Assembly: GCA_020072965.1 (NCBI GenBank)
Contig: JAIQFY010000005.1
Span: 248,001-312,000, forward strand
Direction of reading: 5' to 3'
DNA: 64,000 nt
From: Terriglobia bacterium
Lineage (GTDB): Bacteria > Acidobacteriota > Terriglobia > JAIQFV01
Below are positions 22,176-39,638 of the stretch, in pieces. Made by a program: the position numbers and the translations under genes. Numbering within the stretch: position 1 is the stretch's first letter; each line of letters starts with the position of its first letter. A model generated the notes under the pieces. It saw nothing but the letters and a program-made list of their open reading frames with translations, made no database searches and was not told the origin of the DNA.

Positions 22176-23047
22176 GAGAGCCTCCTTAAGGTGTGCCCTC
22201 ACTTCCCTGAGAATCAGGGGGGACACAACTCGGATGGAGACCGCATTGTGGAAAGAGATGCGAAAATGAAAAGAGCAACCCAGGAAATACTAGATGAACA
22301 CCCGCCACGTGGTCGCCCTCGCACCACGCGATATTCGACTCAACTTTAAGTGGAAGCCAGTCCGTGCAGGAAGTGGTCGTAAGTTCTTCGATCCGCAAGA
22401 ATGAGGCGGCACGCCATAAAAGGTAGGTTTTCACATCGGCAATTTACCTCGATGTGTGCGGGCATTTGCAGGTGATTTTTGGAATTGGTCTGATCAGTTC
22501 CAGAAAATAGGCGGTAATTACATTTTTGAAGACGGTACCGCCACTCCTGCGGATTGAAGAACTCGCGTCTGGCTTTTGGATTGGGCTCACTTCAGTTGTC
22601 AAAGATCGTCTTAAACCGCTGGGTTTATGCTGAACTAGGGGCCGGGATACATAAACAGAATATACATTTCACCTGCCAAACTAAAGGATTTCTCATGCTA
22701 GCGCATCTCCTTTAAATTGTTCAAATTAGAATCATGAAAAAATTGAAATGGCTTTGGACATGAAACACAATGGATAAAACCTGTCGCAACAATACTGTTG
22801 CACGCAACGCTTTTGTGTGAGTTCCAGGCGAAAGCCCTCAGGGGCTGGACACATCCTGGAAGGCGCGAATTGTTTCGGGGAGGGCAGGGCAATGATCGGA
22901 GCGGAGCAGCGCTTGGTTAGACCACTGGAAAGTGGGGGGGCCGGATTGAAACCACCGGAACGAGTGGATAGATTTGTCCCACGCACCGGCAAAATCCGAT
23001 TTTCCAGCCCTCCCCTTGTCAGAGAGGAGAATTCCACCAGAACACGC
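22176..23047. other. Long intergenic region upstream of the TPR gene
   Basis: These 872 bases contain no frame with family resemblance. The notable signal is the palindrome at 22786-22801. On the minus strand, AGGAGATGCGCTAGCA (22693-22708) keeps the GG-N10-GC spacing of a sigma-54 promoter but matches the consensus poorly. A small RNA or long leader cannot be excluded. Confidence 0.4.
22786..22801. promoter_or_regulatory. Perfect palindrome GCAACA-N4-TGTTGC
   Basis: GCAACA (22786-22791), ATAC, TGTTGC (22796-22801). It matches, at 11 of 12 arm positions and with the same spacing, an element at 37878-37893 upstream of the merR-led gene run. It is therefore a candidate binding site for the same regulator, upstream of the TPR gene. 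Confidence 0.45.
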
Positions 23048-30599: not shown

Positions 30600-32267
30600 T
30601 CAGCTCTGAAGGACCGCCTCCAGTTCCAGTACGGCCTGCATCCCCGCTTCAATGGCGCGGCGGTTCAGTTCGATCAGGGCCTGATTTTTCACCAGCGCGT
30701 CAATCGCAGCAAACACCGTTTCCTTGGAGAGCAGATGCGTCCGGGCCATCAGGCCTCCAATCATGACCATATTGGCGACCTTGGGGGAGCCAATCTTCTC
30801 AGCAATTTCCGTGGCTGAGAGTGGGACCGTTTCGATATCGTCTCTCACTGGCGGCTCATCGATCAACGATGAATTGTAAATGATGAGTGCGCCAGGCGTC
30901 GCTTCCGGTAGGAATTTCAATAAGGAAGGTTTGTTGAGAGATAGGAGTATGGTGGGTCGAGACACGAGCGGTGACCCAATCTCGTGTTGTGAGAGACGGA
31001 CGTGGCAATGTGCTGTGCCACCCCGCATTTCTGGTCCATAAGAGGGAAGCCAAGAGACCCGATATCCACTGAGCATTCCACTCTCAGCCAAGACCTCGCC
31101 AAGGAGGAGCACTCCCTGGCCTCCGAACCCCGCAATCTTGATCTGGGGGTTCTGATACTTTTCCGGAACGGTTGAAGGGAAAAAGCCGGCTTCCGAGCGT
31201 GGCGGTGCCGGGGAAACCGTCGAGTCAAAAAAGCGTGAGCGTTCGTTGTAATTCCCGAGGAGAGCGGCGCTGCCGCTGGTCTCTCCCGGCCGCTCCGTGG
31301 CCCGGATTCCAAGGAGGGAGGGGACCTCAACCAGGGGCACCTCTTTTCTTGCGGTCCTCCTGGAAGGGGCAGGAGGCGGGGAGCTCGGCTCCACTGCATT
31401 GTCGGCCGGCACCTTGGTTGCCGGAGTCTGACCCGCCTCCGAAGCTGCGCTCGAGCTACCCGACGCAGCCTGCAAAGTCACAATTGATTTTGTCGGGGGC
31501 GCCGTCTTATCACGGTACACGCCCGGCTTATAGTACGGAATCATATTCTCGTTCAGCCACTTTCGCGCATCCTGCGGGGTCATCTTCCAGATGGTCGGAC
31601 ACGGGGAAAGAATCTCCACCAGCGAAAACCCCAGGCCGTCAATTTGATTCTGGATGGCCTTCCGAATCGCCTTGCGTGTGCGCATATTGTTTTTGCTGTC
31701 GAATATAGCGGTCCGTTCCAGATAAACCGGTGCCTCGAGCGCCGCCAACAATTCACAGACCCGCATGGGGTACCCCTCGTTCTGGAGAGTTCGCCCGAAA
31801 GGAGAGGTTGTCGTCTTCTGACCCAACAGGGACGTGGGGGCCATTTGCCCGCCTGTCATTCCGTAGATGGCGTTGTTGACGAAGAACACGGTAATGTCTT
31901 CACCACGGTTGGCCGCATGCAGGATTTCGTTTCCGCCGATAGCCGCAAGGTCTCCATCTCCCTGGTAGCTGAGGACAATGGAACCCGGGCGGGAGCGTTT
32001 GATGCCTGTGGCCACCGCGGGAGCTCGCCCGTGCGGGGCTTGCACGTTCCCCACATCAAAATAGTAGTAGGCGAAAACGGAGCAGCCGACCGGGCTGACC
32101 AGGATCGTCCGGTCCTGGACTCCCAGGTCGTCAAGACACTCCGCGATCATTTTGTGGATGACGCCATGCCCGCATCCGGGACAGTAGTGAGTGACATGCT
32201 GGTCGCCGTCCTTGCGCTCGAACAGGTCGTAGATAGAATCGGGTCGTTGTTGGACAATCGTGTACAT
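30600..32267 (-). CDS. 2-oxoacid:ferredoxin oxidoreductase, fused beta-gamma subunit
   Basis: Catalytic subunit of a CoA-dependent 2-oxoacid oxidoreductase that passes electrons to ferredoxin. Residues 1-255 are the TPP-binding beta part: YCPGCGHG (cluster cysteines 29 and 32), SPVGCS, GDGD at 103-106, NN at 131-132 for Mg-TPP, then SPCP near 221. Residues 256 to about 373 are a low-complexity Ala/Pro/Ser-rich linker. Residues 375-555 are a complete gamma domain: IAGFGGQGVLLLG, SYGPEMRGGTAHCHVRLS and the conserved C-terminal helices. Beta and gamma are usually separate proteins, so the fusion is unusual. The alpha and delta genes lie directly upstream. Substrate is probably a branched-chain 2-oxoacid or 2-oxoglutarate. 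GGAG lies 9 bases before the ATG. Confidence 0.9.
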   Translation of the reverse strand: MYTIVQQRPDSIYDLFERKDGDQHVTHYCPGCGHGVIHKMIAECLDDLGVQDRTILVSPVGCSVFAYYYFDVGNVQAPHGRAPAVATGIKRSRPGSIVLSYQGDGDLAAIGGNEILHAANRGEDITVFFVNNAIYGMTGGQMAPTSLLGQKTTTSPFGRTLQNEGYPMRVCELLAALEAPVYLERTAIFDSKNNMRTRKAIRKAIQNQIDGLGFSLVEILSPCPTIWKMTPQDARKWLNENMIPYYKPGVYRDKTAPPTKSIVTLQAASGSSSAASEAGQTPATKVPADNAVEPSSPPPAPSRRTARKEVPLVEVPSLLGIRATERPGETSGSAALLGNYNERSRFFDSTVSPAPPRSEAGFFPSTVPEKYQNPQIKIAGFGGQGVLLLGEVLAESGMLSGYRVSWLPSYGPEMRGGTAHCHVRLSQHEIGSPLVSRPTILLSLNKPSLLKFLPEATPGALIIYNSSLIDEPPVRDDIETVPLSATEIAEKIGSPKVANMVMIGGLMARTHLLSKETVFAAIDALVKNQALIELNRRAIEAGMQAVLELEAVLQS

Positions 32268-32331: not shown

Positions 32332-33432
32332 CTAAACAGCGTGCAAGCCCATCGGGACGGCCATCGCCTCATTGCACTCGGCAGGATGGGAAATGGTCGA
32401 CCTAATGACATCGAAGACCTCCTCGGTGGAGGGAACACACCCCCCCATACGGCTGTAAAAGTCGCAAGGGTGCCGGCGCGAAATCGCCAGCCGGACATCG
32501 TCCACCAATTGCCCATCGCTTAACTCCACCGTAAGGAAACGCTCTGTGGACATTGAAATCTCGGCAAGTTGCTGCGTAGGGAAGGGGAAGAGGGTGATGG
32601 GGCGAAACAGGCCTGCCCGGATTCCGTAATGGCGGGCCATGTCAACGGCCGATTTCAACACCCGCGAGACGATCCCATAACCCACCAGCACAATTTCAGC
32701 ATCGCTCACCTGATAGGCCTCATACCGGACCTCGCTTTCCCGGATTCTGCGATACTTTTCGGCCAGACGCAGTTCATGTTGCTCCAGCGCCTCATGCGAG
32801 AGGTAAATCGACGTGATGACATTCTTCCGGGTCGCTGCATCTCCTCGGGCAGCCCAGTCCTTGACCGGGGCTTCCTGGGCAGTCTCCGGAAAGTCCACCG
32901 GTTCCATCATCTGGCCGATGTAGCCATCGGCGAGCACAACGGCGGGGTTGCGATACTTGTCCGCCAGCTCAAAGGCCAGGATGGTCAAATCGCACATCTC
33001 CTGCGCGGAATTGGGGGCCAGTACGATGTTGTGGTAATTTCCATGGCCGCCTCCTTTCACCATCTGGTTGTAATCGCCCTGCTCCGGACCAATGTTTCCC
33101 AGGCCCGGGCCGCCCCGCATGATATCGGCGATAACACAGGGGAGTTCCGAACCAGCGAGGTAGGAGATTCCTTCCTGCATCAGGCTAATCCCCGGGCCCG
33201 ACGAGCCGGTCATGCATCGCAACCCGGCCGACGAGGCCCCGTAGATCATGTTGATCGAGGCGACTTCGCTTTCGGCTTGGAGAAAGGTGCCGCCCACCGT
33301 AGGAAAGTAGTAAGCGGCTGCTTCTGCAATTTCGCTCGCAGGCGTGATGGGATACCCAAAATAGGCGCGACAGCCCGCCAGAATCGCAGCCTTCACGATG
33401 GCTTCATTTCCCTTGATCAGTTCTTTGCTCAT
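32332..33432 (-). CDS. 2-oxoacid:ferredoxin oxidoreductase, alpha subunit
   Basis: A 366-aa pyrimidine-domain subunit that pairs with the downstream beta-gamma fusion. [32 protein letters not shown] is the standard opening of VorB/KorA-type alpha subunits. [22 protein letters not shown] and the C-terminal transketolase-like segment [16 protein letters not shown] also fit. The gap to the fused subunit is 64 bases. The ATG at 33432 begins exactly at the conserved domain, with a weak GGAC upstream. The longer frame to 33507 is less likely. Substrate class cannot be set from sequence alone: VOR and KOR alpha subunits look much alike. Confidence 0.92.
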
Positions 33433-33549
33433 GGTTATTTGTCCGCGTTGGAGATTTTGGTCCGAAAAGTTGTATGTGCTCGATGGATTGAATGAAAGTG
33501 GTTTCACAAAACGCCGGTTGACGTGGCCGTGGCGCTTCGGCCGCCGCCG

Positions 33550-33810
33550 CTAAGCCGCACGGTGCTGTTTCGGTTGGACCTCCTCATCCTGCCACTTGTA
33601 GACGGTGATGGCCCCGGGCTCAGGGCAGACATAAAAGCAAATACCACATCCTGTACACCCGTCCCCCAGATACTGGGCGGGGTGATACCCCTGGACATTG
33701 AGTGTGGTTGAGAGCTGGATGACTTTCGGGGGACAAGCGTCAGTACAAACGGCGCACCCCTTGCATTCGTCCTGGGCAATCTCAATCTTTCCACGCGCTG
33801 GATTGGGCAT
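33550..33810 (-). CDS. 2-oxoacid:ferredoxin oxidoreductase, ferredoxin-like delta subunit
   Basis: An 86-aa protein with two [4Fe-4S] motifs, [12 protein letters not shown] (first Cys at residue 16) and [12 protein letters not shown]. It is the usual small subunit that relays electrons from the catalytic TPP site to soluble ferredoxin. The segment [20 protein letters not shown] and the closing GAITVYKW are typical of the delta/PorD-KorD group. It precedes the alpha gene on the same strand. AGAGG lies 9 bases before the ATG. Confidence 0.93.
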
Positions 33811-33881: not shown

Positions 33882-35210
33882 TCAGGCTACCTCGACGGGC
33901 ACCCGCACCTGCGGGGCCAACCATTTTTGAGTGAAAGCAAATTCCAACAAATCTTCACGGAACCTGGGATCTGCGATCTCGATCAGCGCCATGCAGCGCT
34001 GCCGGATGTTCTTTCCGTGAAGGGAAGCGACCCCGAATTCGGTGACCACAAAATGGACATCCCCGCGGGAGGTGACCACCCCTGCTCCCGGATCAAGCCG
34101 GGCGACGATTCGCGAGACGGCACCGTCTCTTGCCGTCGCTGGGAGAGCGATGATGGGCTTGCCCCCTTTGGATCGCGCGGCCCCGCGAATGAAATCCACC
34201 TGTCCACCGATTCCGCTGTAAATCGAATGACCGATGGAGTCGGCAGAGACCTGTCCCGTCAGATCCACCTGGATGGCCGAGTTGATGGCCACCATCTTCT
34301 CGTTCTGCGCGATGATGAATGGATCGTTCACGTACTTGGTCGGGTGGAATTCGAAGAGGGGATTGTTGTCCACGAAATCGAAGACGCGCTTGGTCCCCAG
34401 CAGGAACCCTGCAATAATCTTGCCGGGATGCAGGGTCTTCCGCTCGCTGTTTACCACGCCCATCTCCACCAGTTCGGCCACGCTGTCAGAGAACATTTCG
34501 CTGTGAATGCCCAGGTCCTTCTTGGTTCGAAGGAACGAAAGCACCGCATCCGGAATCCCGCCGATGCCGAGTTGTAGCGTCGAGCCGTCCTCGATCAGAG
34601 CCGCCGCATGACGGCCAATGGCACTGTGCAGTTCGCTCGTTTCGACTCGCTTGATTTCCAGCACGGGGCGCGAACATTCCACGATGCGGTCAATCTTGTG
34701 CACATGAATAAAGGAGTCCCCCAGCGTACGCGGCATCTGATCATTCACATGCGCGATGACCGTCTTCGCCACTTGGCAGGCGGTGAGCGTGGTATCGACC
34801 CCCACGCCGAAACTGCAGAATCCGTGTTCATCCGGCGGAGAAACCTGAATCAGGGCGACATCAATGGGCAGCGCCCCACTCTCGAAAAGGTCCTCGATCT
34901 CGCTCAGAAAGATCGGCGTGTAATCGGCGCGACCTTCGTTGACGGCCCGGCGGACATTTCCTCCCACGAACATGGCGTTGTGGCGGAAATGGCCTTCCAT
35001 CTCCGGCTTGATGTAGTCGGCATTGCCCATGGTCAACAGATGGACGACTTCCACGTTTTGCAGGCTGGGGGCGCGCGCTATCAGGGCTTCGACCAAAACT
35101 TCCGGTTCGGCACAGCCGGGATGGATGTAAACCCGGTCGTTGGATTTCACGACATCGAGAGCCTGCTCGGCGCTCATTAATTTCTGTTTATAATTGCTGA
35201 TCCAGATCAT
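33882..35210 (-). CDS. Acetyl-CoA hydrolase/CoA-transferase family protein
   Basis: A 442-aa family I-like CoA-transferase, close to 4-hydroxybutyrate CoA-transferase / Cat1-type enzymes. It would swap CoA between acyl-CoA and a free acid such as acetate via a glutamyl-CoA thioester. Landmarks are DRVYIHPGCAEPEVLVEAL (N-terminal domain), TLQLGIGGIPDAVLSFL, VDNNPLFEFHP, GIGGQVDFIRGAARSKGGK and FGVASLHGKNIRQRC (C-terminal domain). Being 71 bases upstream of the delta subunit gene, it could consume the acyl-CoA made by the oxidoreductase and conserve its energy. The acid and acyl-CoA used are not predictable. A second start at 35177 is possible. Confidence 0.9.
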   Translation of the reverse strand: MIWISNYKQKLMSAEQALDVVKSNDRVYIHPGCAEPEVLVEALIARAPSLQNVEVVHLLTMGNADYIKPEMEGHFRHNAMFVGGNVRRAVNEGRADYTPIFLSEIEDLFESGALPIDVALIQVSPPDEHGFCSFGVGVDTTLTACQVAKTVIAHVNDQMPRTLGDSFIHVHKIDRIVECSRPVLEIKRVETSELHSAIGRHAAALIEDGSTLQLGIGGIPDAVLSFLRTKKDLGIHSEMFSDSVAELVEMGVVNSERKTLHPGKIIAGFLLGTKRVFDFVDNNPLFEFHPTKYVNDPFIIAQNEKMVAINSAIQVDLTGQVSADSIGHSIYSGIGGQVDFIRGAARSKGGKPIIALPATARDGAVSRIVARLDPGAGVVTSRGDVHFVVTEFGVASLHGKNIRQRCMALIEIADPRFREDLLEFAFTQKWLAPQVRVPVEVA

Positions 35211-35277: not shown

Positions 35278-36411
35278 TTAGGACCAAATATAGGCGGAGG
35301 TGAGCGTGTCGAGGGGTTCGTACTTAACATCAAAGATTTCAGCGATCTGTTCGCGCGTACAATGACCGCGATAGGTAAACACGCCTCGGGCCAGATCGAG
35401 ATGCTTGCGGACCGCCTCTTCGGTGCCGAGTCCGGCGATCTCGCGCACGTACGGCAGACTGGCATTGGAAAGCGCGACGGACGCCGTGCGGGCGATATTC
35501 GCGGTCAGGTTCGGACAGCAATAGTGAATCACATCCTTGTGAACAAACGTCGGCTGCGCCAGCGTGGTCGGACGACTGGTTTCAATGCTCCCGCCCTGGT
35601 CAATGGAGACATCCACAATGACACTGCCCGGCTTCATGGTCTCGACCATTTTTTGCGTCACTACGTGGGGCGTCTTCCCCCCGTGAATCAAGACCGCGCC
35701 AATCAGAACATCCGCATGCCGCACCGCGCGCTCGATATTATAGGTATCGGCGACCGCCGTGACGACACGATTACCCAGCCGTGACATCAAGCGCCGCAGC
35801 TTGTTGACATCCGAATCGAGGACCATGACGTGGGCGCCATTCGCGACCGCGGTCTGGGCCGCCCAGGTCCCGACTACGCCCGCGCCCAAAATCACCACCG
35901 AGGCCGGCGGAATTCCAGGGGCCCCTCCGAGCAGCACTCCACGCCCGTTGTTGTGGGATTCCAGGAGATGCGCGGAGATAAAGACGGACATCTGGCCCGC
36001 AATCTCGCTGATCGGGAGCAATACCGGCAGTTGACCGTCCAGGGTCTCAATCACTTCGTAGCCGATGGCCGTGATCTCCTTCTTCAGGAGCTCCTCAAAG
36101 AGCGGCCTTCCCGCCACGGCGAGGTGAAAGAAGGCCAGGACGGTCTTGTCCCGCCGCATCGACTGAAGTTCGTCCAGCGTCGGAGCAGAGACCTTCAGGA
36201 GCAGTTCGGTCCGGGCCAGGACTTCGTCGTGGGAAAAGGCGATCTTCGCCCCGGCATTGACGTACTCTTCATCATTGAAATGGCTTCCTTCCCCTGCCCC
36301 GCGTTCAAAGTAAACCGAGTGGCCTTCTTCAATCAGCGCCCGGACATTGGAAGGAATCAAAGCGACACGCCGCTCCATCTGGGTCGGCTCTTTAACAAAT
36401 CCGATGATCAT
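35278..36411 (-). CDS. ald: Alanine dehydrogenase
   Basis: Reversibly converts alanine and NAD to pyruvate, ammonia and NADH. It is 377 aa, the family length. IGFVKEPTQMERRVALIP includes the substrate-binding arginine; the conserved catalytic histidine and lysine regions and LLPISEIAGQMSV are present. The NAD site is VVILGAGVVGTWAAQTAVANGAHVMVLD. DVSIDQGGSIETSRPTT is also conserved. The ATG at 36411 has GGGAG 7 bases upstream; the 34 extra upstream codons are likely not translated. The position upstream of the CoA-transferase and pyruvate-family oxidoreductase suggests pyruvate as a shared intermediate, although IlvE downstream points to branched chains. Confidence 0.94.
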   Translation of the reverse strand: MIIGFVKEPTQMERRVALIPSNVRALIEEGHSVYFERGAGEGSHFNDEEYVNAGAKIAFSHDEVLARTELLLKVSAPTLDELQSMRRDKTVLAFFHLAVAGRPLFEELLKKEITAIGYEVIETLDGQLPVLLPISEIAGQMSVFISAHLLESHNNGRGVLLGGAPGIPPASVVILGAGVVGTWAAQTAVANGAHVMVLDSDVNKLRRLMSRLGNRVVTAVADTYNIERAVRHADVLIGAVLIHGGKTPHVVTQKMVETMKPGSVIVDVSIDQGGSIETSRPTTLAQPTFVHKDVIHYCCPNLTANIARTASVALSNASLPYVREIAGLGTEEAVRKHLDLARGVFTYRGHCTREQIAEIFDVKYEPLDTLTSAYIWS

Positions 36412-36555
36412 GGTGCTTCTCCCGTCGACGTCGAAATCAATCTTCCTTACAACCCTGCATTCCGCTCCCGCCCCCCCGGAGGAAGACGGCCCAACTGTTG
36501 TAACTTTTTTCACATGAGCTTAAAGACTATTCCCTCCCGGCCGGTTTTCTCCGAG

Positions 36556-37095
36556 CTATTCAGCAGCTTTCGACTTAGAAAACTCGAATTCGGGATACTT
36601 AATGGAAAGCACCGGACACGGCGCCAGCGAAACCACGCGCTCCGTCGTTGAACCCGTGAGGGTGTGGTCCAGCCCGGTCCGACCGCGCGTGGACATCACA
36701 ATGATGTCGACCCCCAGGGCCTGCGCTTTCCGCACAATCTCCTGGTAAGGGACCCCTTTCTCCAGGATTTCTTCGACCCGGATCTGGGTCTTGACCTCAG
36801 GTGGAACAACTTTCTGAAGACTCTCCTTGGCGCAGTGTTTCAGATAGGCGATGTAGTCCGCATCCATGCCGTGGTACACCTCGGGCGGATAATTCTGCGC
36901 CAGCAGGACGTTCACGTGGAGAACATAGAGGATGGCATTGAAATGCGTCGCCAGCGAAATCGCGTACTTGAGGGCATAATTGGCGTAATTTGAAAAGTCC
37001 GTGGGAAATAGGATCTTCTGGATCAGAAAGCCTGCCATCGGATTCTTTGGAACTGGGGCTTCCAAAACGACCTCGGGAGAAATCTTCTTGAGCAT
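36556..37095 (-). CDS. Universal stress protein (UspA family)
   Basis: A 179-aa single Usp domain with an N-terminal extension of about 25 residues. The domain begins at QKILFPTDFSNYANYALKYAISLA, and the ATP-binding loop is DIIVMSTRGRTGLDHTLTGSTTERVV (G-x2-G-x9-G-S/T pattern), so it is probably a nucleotide-binding type. The ATG lies 3 bases after the stop of the merR gene, so the two are almost certainly translated together. ald follows after 144 bases. Such proteins are often induced by starvation or low oxygen. Here a sigma-54-like promoter upstream of merR would control it. Confidence 0.9.
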   Translation of the reverse strand: MLKKISPEVVLEAPVPKNPMAGFLIQKILFPTDFSNYANYALKYAISLATHFNAILYVLHVNVLLAQNYPPEVYHGMDADYIAYLKHCAKESLQKVVPPEVKTQIRVEEILEKGVPYQEIVRKAQALGVDIIVMSTRGRTGLDHTLTGSTTERVVSLAPCPVLSIKYPEFEFSKSKAAE

Positions 37096-37098
37096 AGG

Positions 37099-37605
37099 TT
37101 AGGCGCCTCGTTCCAGGAATACAGACATCATTAAGGGCGCGTGGCCACGACGATCAACAGCTTTGCAGTCCCCACAGGATTCTATTTCCAGCAGAGGTTT
37201 TCCTTCGCAGCGGGCACATTCACGGAGGATATCGACCATTCCGGAGAGTTCATCTTTGACCCCGGACAGTTCCTGGATCCTGCCATTGACGGCCCCCAGT
37301 TTGGACTCCAGCAACTTGATGAGGACGGCGACTTGTTCTTTCTTCTCGCGTGTGGGTGTGGACTTCTTGACGGTGAAGATCTCCTTAATTTCCTCCAGGG
37401 AGAGCGGCAGTGACTTCAAATAGTTGATGACTTCCAGTTTCTTGACATCCTCCCCCGAATATAGCCGATGTCCCCCCTTGCTATGGGATGCGGGAGCGAT
37501 CAGGCCGATTTCTTCGTAGTAGCGGAGCGTTCTCAGAGAGACATGCGCATTCCTCGCCAGGGCCCCGATCTTGATCAGATTATTTGTAGATCCCGCACTT
37601 GCCAT
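37099..37605 (-). CDS. MerR-family transcriptional regulator
   Basis: A 168-aa regulator. The winged helix-turn-helix is IGALARNAHVSLRTLRYYEEIGLI (residues 12-35), with GGHRLYSGEDVKKLEVINYLKSLPLSLEEIKEIF completing the DNA-binding domain. A coiled-coil dimer helix follows to about residue 130. A short C-terminal part holds four cysteines (CARCEG...ESCGDC), which could bind a metal or respond to redox; this layout differs from classical MerR and SoxR. SD AAGGA lies 6 bases before the ATG. It heads the usp-ald-oxidoreductase run and is preceded by a sigma-54-like promoter at 37749-37764. Its target could be this same operon. Confidence 0.88.
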   Translation of the reverse strand: MASAGSTNNLIKIGALARNAHVSLRTLRYYEEIGLIAPASHSKGGHRLYSGEDVKKLEVINYLKSLPLSLEEIKEIFTVKKSTPTREKKEQVAVLIKLLESKLGAVNGRIQELSGVKDELSGMVDILRECARCEGKPLLEIESCGDCKAVDRRGHAPLMMSVFLERGA

Positions 37606-37748: not shown

Positions 37749-37764
37749 GGCAATTGCTTTTCCA
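37749..37764 (-). promoter_or_regulatory. Sigma-54-type -24/-12 promoter upstream of the merR-usp-ald run
   Basis: Minus strand: TGGAAA-AGCAA-TTGCC, with GG and GC exactly 10 bases apart as in the TGGCAC-N5-TTGCW consensus. TGG and TTGC match; the CAC part is AAA. It lies about 145 bases before the merR ATG, and the expected transcript start is near 37738. A TGTTGC-rich cluster 106-142 bases upstream and an enhancer-binding regulator gene beyond it support the call. Confidence 0.65.
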
Positions 37765-37869
37765 AACGAGTGAAGGAGCGTGTGGATATCACGAGGCCAA
37801 GAAGCCTTTTAGTTACAGCAGGGTGAGGGTATTTTGAAGCATGTGTATTAGAGGTGTGCTTGGCTTTTT

Positions 37870-37906
37870 TGTTGCATGCAACGCATATGTTGCGGCTTTT
37901 TGTTGC
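37870..37906. promoter_or_regulatory. Cluster of TGTTGC/GCAACG elements, candidate upstream activating sequence
   Basis: TGTTGC at 37870-37875, GCAACG-CATA-TGTTGC palindrome at 37878-37893 and TGTTGC at 37901-37906. The first two overlap in a 12-bp palindrome GTTGCATGCAAC (37871-37882). They sit 106-142 bases upstream of the -24 element, the usual distance for sigma-54 activator sites. Confidence 0.55.
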
Positions 37907-37921: not shown

Positions 37922-39298
37922 TTATGGGGCAGAGATATTAAATTTCTTCATCTTACGCCACAAGGTCACACGATCAATTCCCAGCTCCCGGCTGGCCTTT
38001 GCCTTGTTCCAGCCCGCCTGTTGCAAGGCTGCAATGAGCTTTTCGCGGTCGTCCTTCACACCTTGCTCGGAGATCTGAAAGTGCTTGGACCCGAGACAGA
38101 TTTCAATGGGCAGAGAAATCGGCTCGATCGATCGACTGTGGGTCTTTACAAAGGCATGCTCTACGGCATTCTCAAGCTGACGGATATTTCCAGGCCAGTC
38201 ATAATCCATTATGATGTTGAGAGCCTCTTTGGTGATTCCCGCAATGTTCTTTCCGGTCTGCTCATTGAATTCGGAGATGAAATGATCGAGCAGCAAGGGG
38301 ATGTCTTCTTTGCGTTCACGAAGGGGCGGGATCGAAACCGGAATGACATTGAGCCGGTAAAACAGATCCTCCCGGAATTTAGACTCGTCCACCAACTGCT
38401 TCAGGTTTCGATTCGTGGCCGCAATTATGCGGACATCGACGTTGATCACTTTGGAATCCCCGACCCGTTCCACCTCACGTTCCTGCAAAACACGCAAAAG
38501 CTTCAATTGGATGTTCGGCGAGATGTCGCCGATTTCATCGAGAAAAATGGATCCCTGCTGCGCCAGTTCGAAGCGCCCGATCTTGTCCCGGTAGGCGCCT
38601 GTGAAGGCCCCCTTCACATGACCGAATAGTTCACTCTCAAGCAGGGTCTCGGCCAGGGCGGAACAGTTGACTTTCACGAATGGAAACTGAGAACGTCGGC
38701 TCTGGTGATGGATGGCGCGGGCAATCAATTCCTTGCCGGTCCCACTCTCTCCCAGGACTAATACGGTGGCGTCCGATTCCCCTACATCTTCAATGAGGGC
38801 GAAGGTCTCCTGCATGCGGTGGCTCTTCCCGATGATGCTGTGGAATTGATATCGCCCGATGAGCTCCTTCTTCAGGGTCATCAGCTCGCTGATATCTCGG
38901 AAGGTGACTACTATCCCCGCGATGCGGTCGCTGGCGTCGCGAAGGATGGCAGTGCTTATCCGCGCGATGCGAATCTCCCCATTCTTGCGCTCCAGGCGAA
39001 CCTCGGTGTTTTTTTCGGGGACTTGATTTTGCACCGTTGTAAACATTCCACAGGAAGAGTCGCACGCGGTGCAACGAAGGATGTGCCGGCAGGTCTGACC
39101 AATGGCTTCCTCAGCGGTGTACCCGGTAATCTCTTCGGCCGCCCGATTGAATCGGGTGATCTTGAAGTCGGAGTCGTAGGTCATCACACCGTCGCTGATA
39201 TTGTTGAGAATTGCCCCGAGGGTGTCGGCCTGGTCCCAGTATTCGCGGGGTTGAACCATCAACCCTTCACTAATTTGAATTAATTCGCTTTCGCTCAA
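37922..39298 (-). CDS. Sigma-54-dependent enhancer-binding regulator with Cys-rich PAS domain
   Basis: A 458-aa activator of the NtrC class. Residues about 24-145 are a PAS sensor with an inserted four-cysteine motif C70-x5-C76-x2-C79-x3-C83, a possible Fe-S or redox site. Residues about 150-390 are the AAA+ domain: Walker A GESGTGKE (183-190), the sigma-54 contact loop GAFTGA (230-235), Walker B IFLDE (251-255) and an arginine finger region LREDLFYRLN-like. Residues 416-455 are a Fis-type helix-turn-helix. There is no response-regulator receiver domain, so it senses directly. The start is TTG at 39298 or ATG at 39259 (AAGGG 3 bases upstream). Sigma-54-like promoters lie on both sides of the gene. 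Confidence 0.93.
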   Translation of the reverse strand: MSESELIQISEGLMVQPREYWDQADTLGAILNNISDGVMTYDSDFKITRFNRAAEEITGYTAEEAIGQTCRHILRCTACDSSCGMFTTVQNQVPEKNTEVRLERKNGEIRIARISTAILRDASDRIAGIVVTFRDISELMTLKKELIGRYQFHSIIGKSHRMQETFALIEDVGESDATVLVLGESGTGKELIARAIHHQSRRSQFPFVKVNCSALAETLLESELFGHVKGAFTGAYRDKIGRFELAQQGSIFLDEIGDISPNIQLKLLRVLQEREVERVGDSKVINVDVRIIAATNRNLKQLVDESKFREDLFYRLNVIPVSIPPLRERKEDIPLLLDHFISEFNEQTGKNIAGITKEALNIIMDYDWPGNIRQLENAVEHAFVKTHSRSIEPISLPIEICLGSKHFQISEQGVKDDREKLIAALQQAGWNKAKASRELGIDRVTLWRKMKKFNISAP

Positions 39299-39357: not shown

Positions 39358-39391
39358 ATTATACCACATACCACAGAATGCAACACCTGTC
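39358..39391 (-). promoter_or_regulatory. Promoter of the sigma-54 regulator gene overlapped by an ATGCAACACCTGTC element
   Basis: Minus strand -10 TATAAT at 39358-39363; the -35 position (39381-39386 with a 17-base spacer) reads GTGTTG. That hexamer is part of the 14-mer ATGCAACACCTGTC (plus strand 39378-39391), which recurs inverted at 39471-39484. Overlap with the -35 suggests autorepression. Confidence 0.55.
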
Positions 39392-39470
39392 TTAAGAGAG
39401 TGCCTTGGTAAGGCCCTAATAGATACAATAGAAAAGGTTTTCTCGTCGAATAAAGACCTTAGGATTGGTT

Positions 39471-39484
39471 GACAAGTGTTGCAT
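39471..39484. promoter_or_regulatory. Inverted second copy of the 14-base element
   Basis: Plus strand GACAAGTGTTGCAT; its complement ATGCAACACTTGTC matches the 39378-39391 copy at 13 of 14 bases, in opposite orientation, about 80 bases away. Both lie in the 553-base divergent region 39299-39851, which has no gene. Confidence 0.6.
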
Positions 39485-39638
39485 GATTGAGGTGGAGACT
39501 GCGTGGGAGACCATGACTTACGATGTTGCCCGCCGATTGTCGGTGCTCTGGGACGCTGTTTTCACACCTGTTTGAATGGAGAAATGTGCTTGCGATGAAA
39601 CAAAGAGGCATGTTAGGTTGCGTCTCGTTCTGACAATT

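Follow-up and report, generated by a model that had tools for sequence, protein, structure and literature searches.

The window, that is, the whole stretch of 64,000 nucleotides that was analysed, carries on its minus strand the gene of a sigma-54 activator or enhancer-binding protein (EBP), followed by an intergenic region with a putative sigma-54 promoter and its UAS, and then by an operon that opens with merR and ends in a ferredoxin-linked 2-oxoacid oxidoreductase. The features of the locus are the following:

37922..39298, minus strand: one-component sigma-54 activator (EBP) with a PAS domain, an AAA+ domain with GAFTGA and a Fis-type HTH (Pfam Sigma54_activat 5.6e-72, PAS_9, HTH_8)
37871..37906, minus strand: UAS, with half-sites GCAAC-N8-GCAAC-N6-GTTGC-AT-GCAAC, kept in G001 and G002 and recurring at three other conserved places
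37808..37818 (approximate within 3 bases), minus strand: CTGTAACTAAA block between the UAS and the merR promoter, with 11/11 columns invariant in three genomes
37750..37764, minus strand: putative sigma-54 promoter (-24/-12), TGG-AAAAGCAATT-GC, 107 bp from the near edge of the UAS
37099..37605, minus strand: MerR-family regulator, first gene of the operon (Pfam MerR_1 7.8e-19)
36556..37095, minus strand: universal stress protein (Pfam Usp 2.9e-27)
35278..36513, minus strand: alanine dehydrogenase, third gene (NCBIfam TIGR00518, 394.1 bits, above the cut-off of 391.85)
33882..35210, minus strand: CoA-transferase of the acetyl-CoA hydrolase/transferase family, nearest to the butyryl-CoA:acetate type, below cut-off
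33550..33810, minus strand: 2x[4Fe-4S] ferredoxin subunit
32332..33507, minus strand: 2-oxoacid:ferredoxin oxidoreductase alpha subunit, VorB-type (NCBIfam NF005507, 548 bits, above the cut-off of 399)
30600..32267, minus strand: 2-oxoacid:ferredoxin oxidoreductase, fused beta/gamma (Pfam TPP_enzyme_C and POR; KorB/PorC-type NCBIfam matches)

The genes of the operon are closely packed, end to start, through korBC; ilvE and citrate synthase are next in order, and were left out of the operon because a gap of about 650 bases precedes them. Both the operon and its gene order are kept in G001 and G002. Pfam and NCBIfam bear out the content that a sequence-only reading had given it (MerR, Usp, alanine dehydrogenase, CoA-transferase and ferredoxin-linked oxidoreductase), and the Pfam domains and the GAFTGA loop agree with the same reading in making the gene beyond the UAS a GAFTGA-type enhancer-binding protein.

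The putative promoter, TGGAAAAGCAATTGC at 37764-37750 on the minus strand, has the exact GG-N10-GC spacing that had been claimed for it and the TGG(C/A)A...TTGC frame. Its -24 element, TGGAAA, is off the TGGCAC consensus, and 8/12 consensus positions are matched, a score that arises by chance about 0.7 times per kb per strand. A search of its own genome with TGGCAC-N5-TTGC was uninformative (14 matches versus 13 in the reversed control). Conservation was assessed in three genomes of the family, a small sample, namely G000 (its own), G001 (same genus) and G002 (same family). In their alignment, the -24/-12 block (TCGTTTGGAAAAGCAATTGC) has 18/20 invariant columns, so that the element is kept in close relatives, the check proposed by the sequence-only reading. 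The near UAS core, the CTGTAACTAAA block and the -24/-12 block together have 52/57 invariant columns, compared with 68/266 (26%) in the rest of the EBP-merR intergenic region, and the top two 20-column windows of the intergenic alignment are the -24/-12 element and the UAS. A promoter scan found no sigma-70 promoter-like site upstream of merR, where a clear one had been named as counter-evidence, and the genome has one copy of the sigma-54 gene (PF04552, E 4.3e-56). The conserved -24/-12, the sigma-54 gene and the outcome of the scan support the predicted sigma-54 control of the merR operon.

The UAS lies directly 3' of the EBP gene and upstream of the merR promoter. Its half-sites are GTTGCATGCAAC (37871-37882), GCAACGCATATGTTGC (37878-37893), which is the GCAACG-CATA-TGTTGC palindrome described earlier, and GTTGC (37902-37906). 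The cluster of TGTTGC/GCAACG elements is thus present as described, at 37871-37906. Its near edge lies 107 bp from the -24 TGG, where 106-142 bases upstream had been given for the cluster. The CTGTAACTAAA block, which was not seen at the other targets of the regulon, may be an extra half-site or the site of another protein.

The composite GCAAC-N6-GTTGC-N2-GCAAC (at most 2 mismatches) and its parts, GCAAC-N6-GTTGC and GTTGC-N2-GCAAC, were used as search patterns. All three genomes have the composite at the same four places, each genome having three exact copies and one with 1 mismatch (2 in G002). The four loci, with the distance from the UAS to TGG-N10-GC (or, at the last, from the near end of the UAS to a conserved TTTGGCA, 22674-22680) in G000, G001 and G002, are:

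Locus (a), the merR-usp-ald-CoA-transferase-ferredoxin-oxidoreductase operon: 107, 107 and 107 bp
Locus (b), G000:C106:48724, upstream of genes for a GNAT acetyltransferase, 2-oxoacid oxidoreductase gamma/delta and alpha/beta fusions, an OsmC-like protein and an NfnA/NfnB-like pair (farther downstream lies a gene of the glutamate dehydrogenase family): 108, 108 and 107 bp
Locus (c), G000:C106:66848, upstream of the ResB and cytochrome-c assembly protein (CcsA) genes, with multihaem cytochromes just ahead: 107, 107 and 108 bp
Locus (d), 22786..22808, minus strand, a second UAS copy in the window with the composite in the opposite order, between maeB and a candidate RNA and kept in G001 and G002: 108, 108 and 107 bp

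The distance from the UAS to the -24 TGG is therefore 107 or 108 bp in 12/12 cases (four loci in three genomes). Since TGG-N10-GC occurs in the window at a rate of 0.0014 per position, the chance of a match in a given 2-bp slot is about 0.003 per locus, and the arrangement of -24/-12 and UAS is, as judged from the sequences, beyond chance. Because the promoters are otherwise unlike in sequence, functional phasing is the best explanation of the constant distance. Sigma-54 control had been predicted for the merR operon, which remains in the regulated set, but the prediction was too narrow, since the recurrence of the UAS extends the putative regulon beyond one operon. A survey of 399 genomes of the class for GTTGC-N2-GCAAC followed at 105-109 bp by TGG-N10-GC gave three matches each in G000, G001 and G002, all of them centred on AT, and between 0 and 2 in each remaining genome (the background is about 0.16 per genome). 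Copies of GCAAC-N6-GTTGC alone in coding sequences (C24, C27, C61 and C67), without the third half-site and the promoter, were rejected, and G001:C1:369367 and G000:C20:60486 were rejected as chance matches.

Several other elements were seen around these sites. An extra GTTGCATGCAAC site occurs only in G002 (C81:1441; L163:1441-1452), upstream of a NapC/NirT-type cytochrome gene and with TGG-N10-GC at 113 bp; this gene is tentatively a lineage-specific fifth target. Between the UAS and the promoter of the POR/NfnAB operon (L155, L156), G000 and G001 have a Rex-like TTGTGAAGTTTTTCACT that is not conserved in G002. A protein with a Rex-type DNA-binding domain is encoded in all three genomes, and such a box would fit an NADH input to this operon. 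In the ResB/CcsA operon, two conserved GGGAC-type inverted repeats, GGGACGAATTGTCC and GGGACTTAAATTCC, lie between the UAS and the promoter (L160:2959-3080, and at the same place in L161 and L162); they are probably the sites of another regulator.

At locus (d), where maeB codes for a malic enzyme-phosphotransacetylase fusion, two features follow the UAS copy:

22664..22678, minus strand: TGGCAGGTGAAATGT, with the -24-like TTTGGCA 108 bp from the UAS copy and GT (GA in G002) instead of GC at -12
22382..22564, minus strand: candidate structured noncoding RNA of about 183 nt with a long closing stem and no Rfam match

The absence of GC at -12 is the weak point of the sigma-54 link at this locus. 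TTTGGCA and the stem are 116-119 bases apart, and a transcript would thus begin with a leader of about 90 bases. The segment 22564-22382 occurs in a single copy, with 97% identity in G001 and 80% in G002; among 61 genomes no other has it, apart from a chance match of 30 bases. It was considered as a 6S RNA (RF00013) and rejected, since that family gave no match at the locus and 6S RNA was found elsewhere in each genome; no other Rfam family matched either. Instead of an RNA gene, the segment could be a DNA element, code for a short product or serve as leader to a downstream gene, with the UAS acting on something else. Part of it is indeed a stop-free reading frame, and only 1 of its 49 pairs shows a two-sided change, to which the -12 element without GC may be added. 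However, G000 and G002 differ in length by 2 bases, which puts the frame out of register, and the downstream ORFs of G000 and G001 differ from those of G002. The predicted folding energies are -64.9, -64.5 and -55.7 kcal/mol in the three genomes, with z of about -6 in each against mononucleotide shuffles, and the pairs show 10 pair-keeping changes, nine of them one-sided, versus 2 broken pairs. We regard these other explanations of the segment as somewhat doubtful, though they retain real weight, and a sigma-54-linked structured RNA as a candidate that appears new.

The EBP itself combines a GAFTGA AAA+ sigma-54 interaction domain with a DNA-binding HTH, and its orthologues are 94% identical in G001 and 84% in G002. 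Its PAS domain has four cysteines, CRHILRCTACDSSC (C-x5-C-x2-C-x3-C), all kept in the three orthologues; distant homologues retain only part of the set. Against NCBIfam it reaches 395.3 bits with PrdR (NF041552), below the cut-off of 795 although this is one of the best matches and spans nearly the whole protein, and 398.4 bits with NifA (TIGR01817), below the cut-off of 528.85. The closest paralogues and homologues (45-49% identity; L042 = G001:C2, L044 and L045) lie beside genes for FeMo-cofactor-type (NifX-like) proteins and ferredoxin-fused MinD-like ATPases, a gene set different from that of the merR operon.

The genomes considered here carry 20 or more EBPs (about 26 scored matches in G000), so the UAS and the sigma-54 promoters could be real and be served by another EBP of the genome, the adjacent one being a chance neighbour; no EBP gene was seen in the stretches read around the other three target loci. 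Yet the EBP gene abuts the UAS in 3/3 genomes, where the gene order of the region is also kept, and its HTH segment, NKAKASRELGIDRVTLWRKMKK, is identical in all three, while EBPs of other lineages with 40-50% identity have an altered recognition segment and no UAS nearby. We count it in favour of the pairing that HTH segment and UAS stay constant together and that the UAS is absent near the distant EBPs. Control by another EBP thus seems improbable to us, and we infer that, of all the EBPs of the genome, it is the adjacent one that binds the UAS, a pairing that rests mainly on adjacency in the three genomes. The distant EBPs without the site, together with the counts in the class, indicate on present data that the regulon is confined to its own family.

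It is very improbable that the GCAAC/GTTGC inverted repeats are merely the terminator of the EBP gene, with a coincidental -24/-12 and merR transcribed by sigma-70: a scan gives a terminator-like hairpin at 37877-37894, though on the plus strand, but on the strand of the EBP gene A rather than T follows the hairpin, the repeats also stand, without a T tract, upstream of divergently placed or unrelated operons, merR has no sigma-70 promoter-like site before it, and the recurrence at a fixed spacing to TGG-N10-GC already contradicts a terminator, for which reason the palindrome was rejected as one.

Pairing the adjacent EBP with the UAS, the switch may work as follows. The EBP (39298-37922) would be made constitutively, probably from a sigma-70 promoter of the ordinary kind; upstream of its gene, all three genomes keep TGGTATAAT, an extended -10. 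It would bind the triple or quadruple array of GCAAC/GTTGC half-sites just behind its own gene, the DNA would loop across 107-108 bp, about ten helical turns, and ATP hydrolysis by the EBP would open the sigma-54 RNA polymerase waiting at TGG-N10-GC, switching on merR-usp-ald-CoA-transferase-ferredoxin-vorAB; activation is the direction of regulation that we infer. The same activator would act in the same way on the POR/NfnAB and cytochrome-c assembly operons and probably also on the candidate RNA that follows maeB. The EBP may respond to a redox (or metal) signal, sensed by its four-cysteine PAS domain. As a separate observation, two inverted TGCAACACTTG-like copies flank the promoter region of the EBP gene (about 39370-39490, minus strand) in G000 and G001, one of them just upstream of its TATAAT; the pair is not conserved in G002, and autoregulation of the EBP is possible.

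Related systems have been described. In Desulfovibrio vulgaris Hildenborough, the one-component EBP DVU0569 is linked to direct sigma-54 control of the alanine dehydrogenase DVU0571, with the sigma-54 promoter of ald just downstream of the DVU0569 gene, and pyruvate and lactate metabolism are also under sigma-54 (PMC4641369). As here, the EBP gene stands immediately before the sigma-54 promoter of ald and the EBP motif is kept in relatives. The likeness is one of layout: ald is the third gene here, DVU0569 has GAFTGG instead of GAFTGA, and its only listed target is ald, whereas here ald sits with a CoA-transferase, a ferredoxin and a 2-oxoacid oxidoreductase, to which three further loci are added. 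Other EBPs of D. vulgaris control 2-oxoacid and lactate metabolism through sigma-54, as we propose here: iorAB is co-transcribed with DVU1949 orthologues, and the DVU2275/DVU2827 and DVU0539/DVU0621/DVU3023 regulons cover pyruvate formate-lyase and lactate metabolism (PMC4641369). These are, however, different EBPs in a different organism, and many of the EBP motifs there have TGT/ACA half-sites in contrast to GCAAC/GTTGC. The same study lists four sigma-54-linked noncoding RNAs (PMC4641369). In Clostridiales, many amino-acid EBPs including PrdR have been reconstructed; they contain PAS domains, like the EBP described here, and activate Stickland catabolism from sigma-54 promoters (PMC6615313). 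The sites of PrdR are TGT-N10-12-ACA, there are no proline reductase genes here, and the PrdR score is far below the cut-off; the Clostridiales study has no mention of 2-oxoacid:ferredoxin oxidoreductase or alanine dehydrogenase (PMC6615313). The sequence-only reading had held the link to 2-oxoacid metabolism to be undescribed, which is only partly right, because sigma-54 control of ald and of pyruvate and lactate metabolism is published for Desulfovibrio (PMC4641369). A literature search, mostly without subscription papers, found no sigma-54 regulon with the GCAAC/GTTGC motif or this gene set, and the EBP/UAS regulon, its redox content, the rigid spacing and the candidate sigma-54-linked RNA appear to be new.

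The promoter, the UAS, their spacing, recurrence and conservation and the presence of sigma-54 are all read from sequence, and from them we consider it highly probable that an EBP-UAS-sigma-54 switch drives the merR operon, POR/NfnAB, cytochrome-c assembly and probably the RNA. The targets come together in the production and re-use of reduced ferredoxin from 2-oxoacids (VOR/POR), in amino-acid dehydrogenases and, with NfnAB and cytochrome c assembly, in electron transfer, which suggests a regulon for oxidising amino acids and 2-oxoacids via reduced ferredoxin and handling the electrons. Since the same switch and spacing recur at the other operons, one activator probably controls this programme of redox and amino-acid oxidation. 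For the full picture, a single redox-sensing EBP that acts from a rigidly spaced enhancer on two oxidoreductase operons with NfnAB, on cytochrome-c assembly and on an undescribed small RNA from a sigma-54-type promoter with a non-GC -12, we see the case as evenly balanced.

The result is a concrete regulon, with an EBP, a motif, a spacing rule and four targets, in a bacterial family for which we found no sigma-54 regulon described. The invariant enhancer spacing of 107-108 bp at non-homologous promoters would be a clean natural case of helical phasing, and the linked RNA, if a true RNA gene, would be a new family. For the biology of these bacteria, one switch would tie together ferredoxin-generating 2-oxoacid oxidation, the electron-bifurcating NfnAB, amino-acid dehydrogenases and cytochrome-c assembly.
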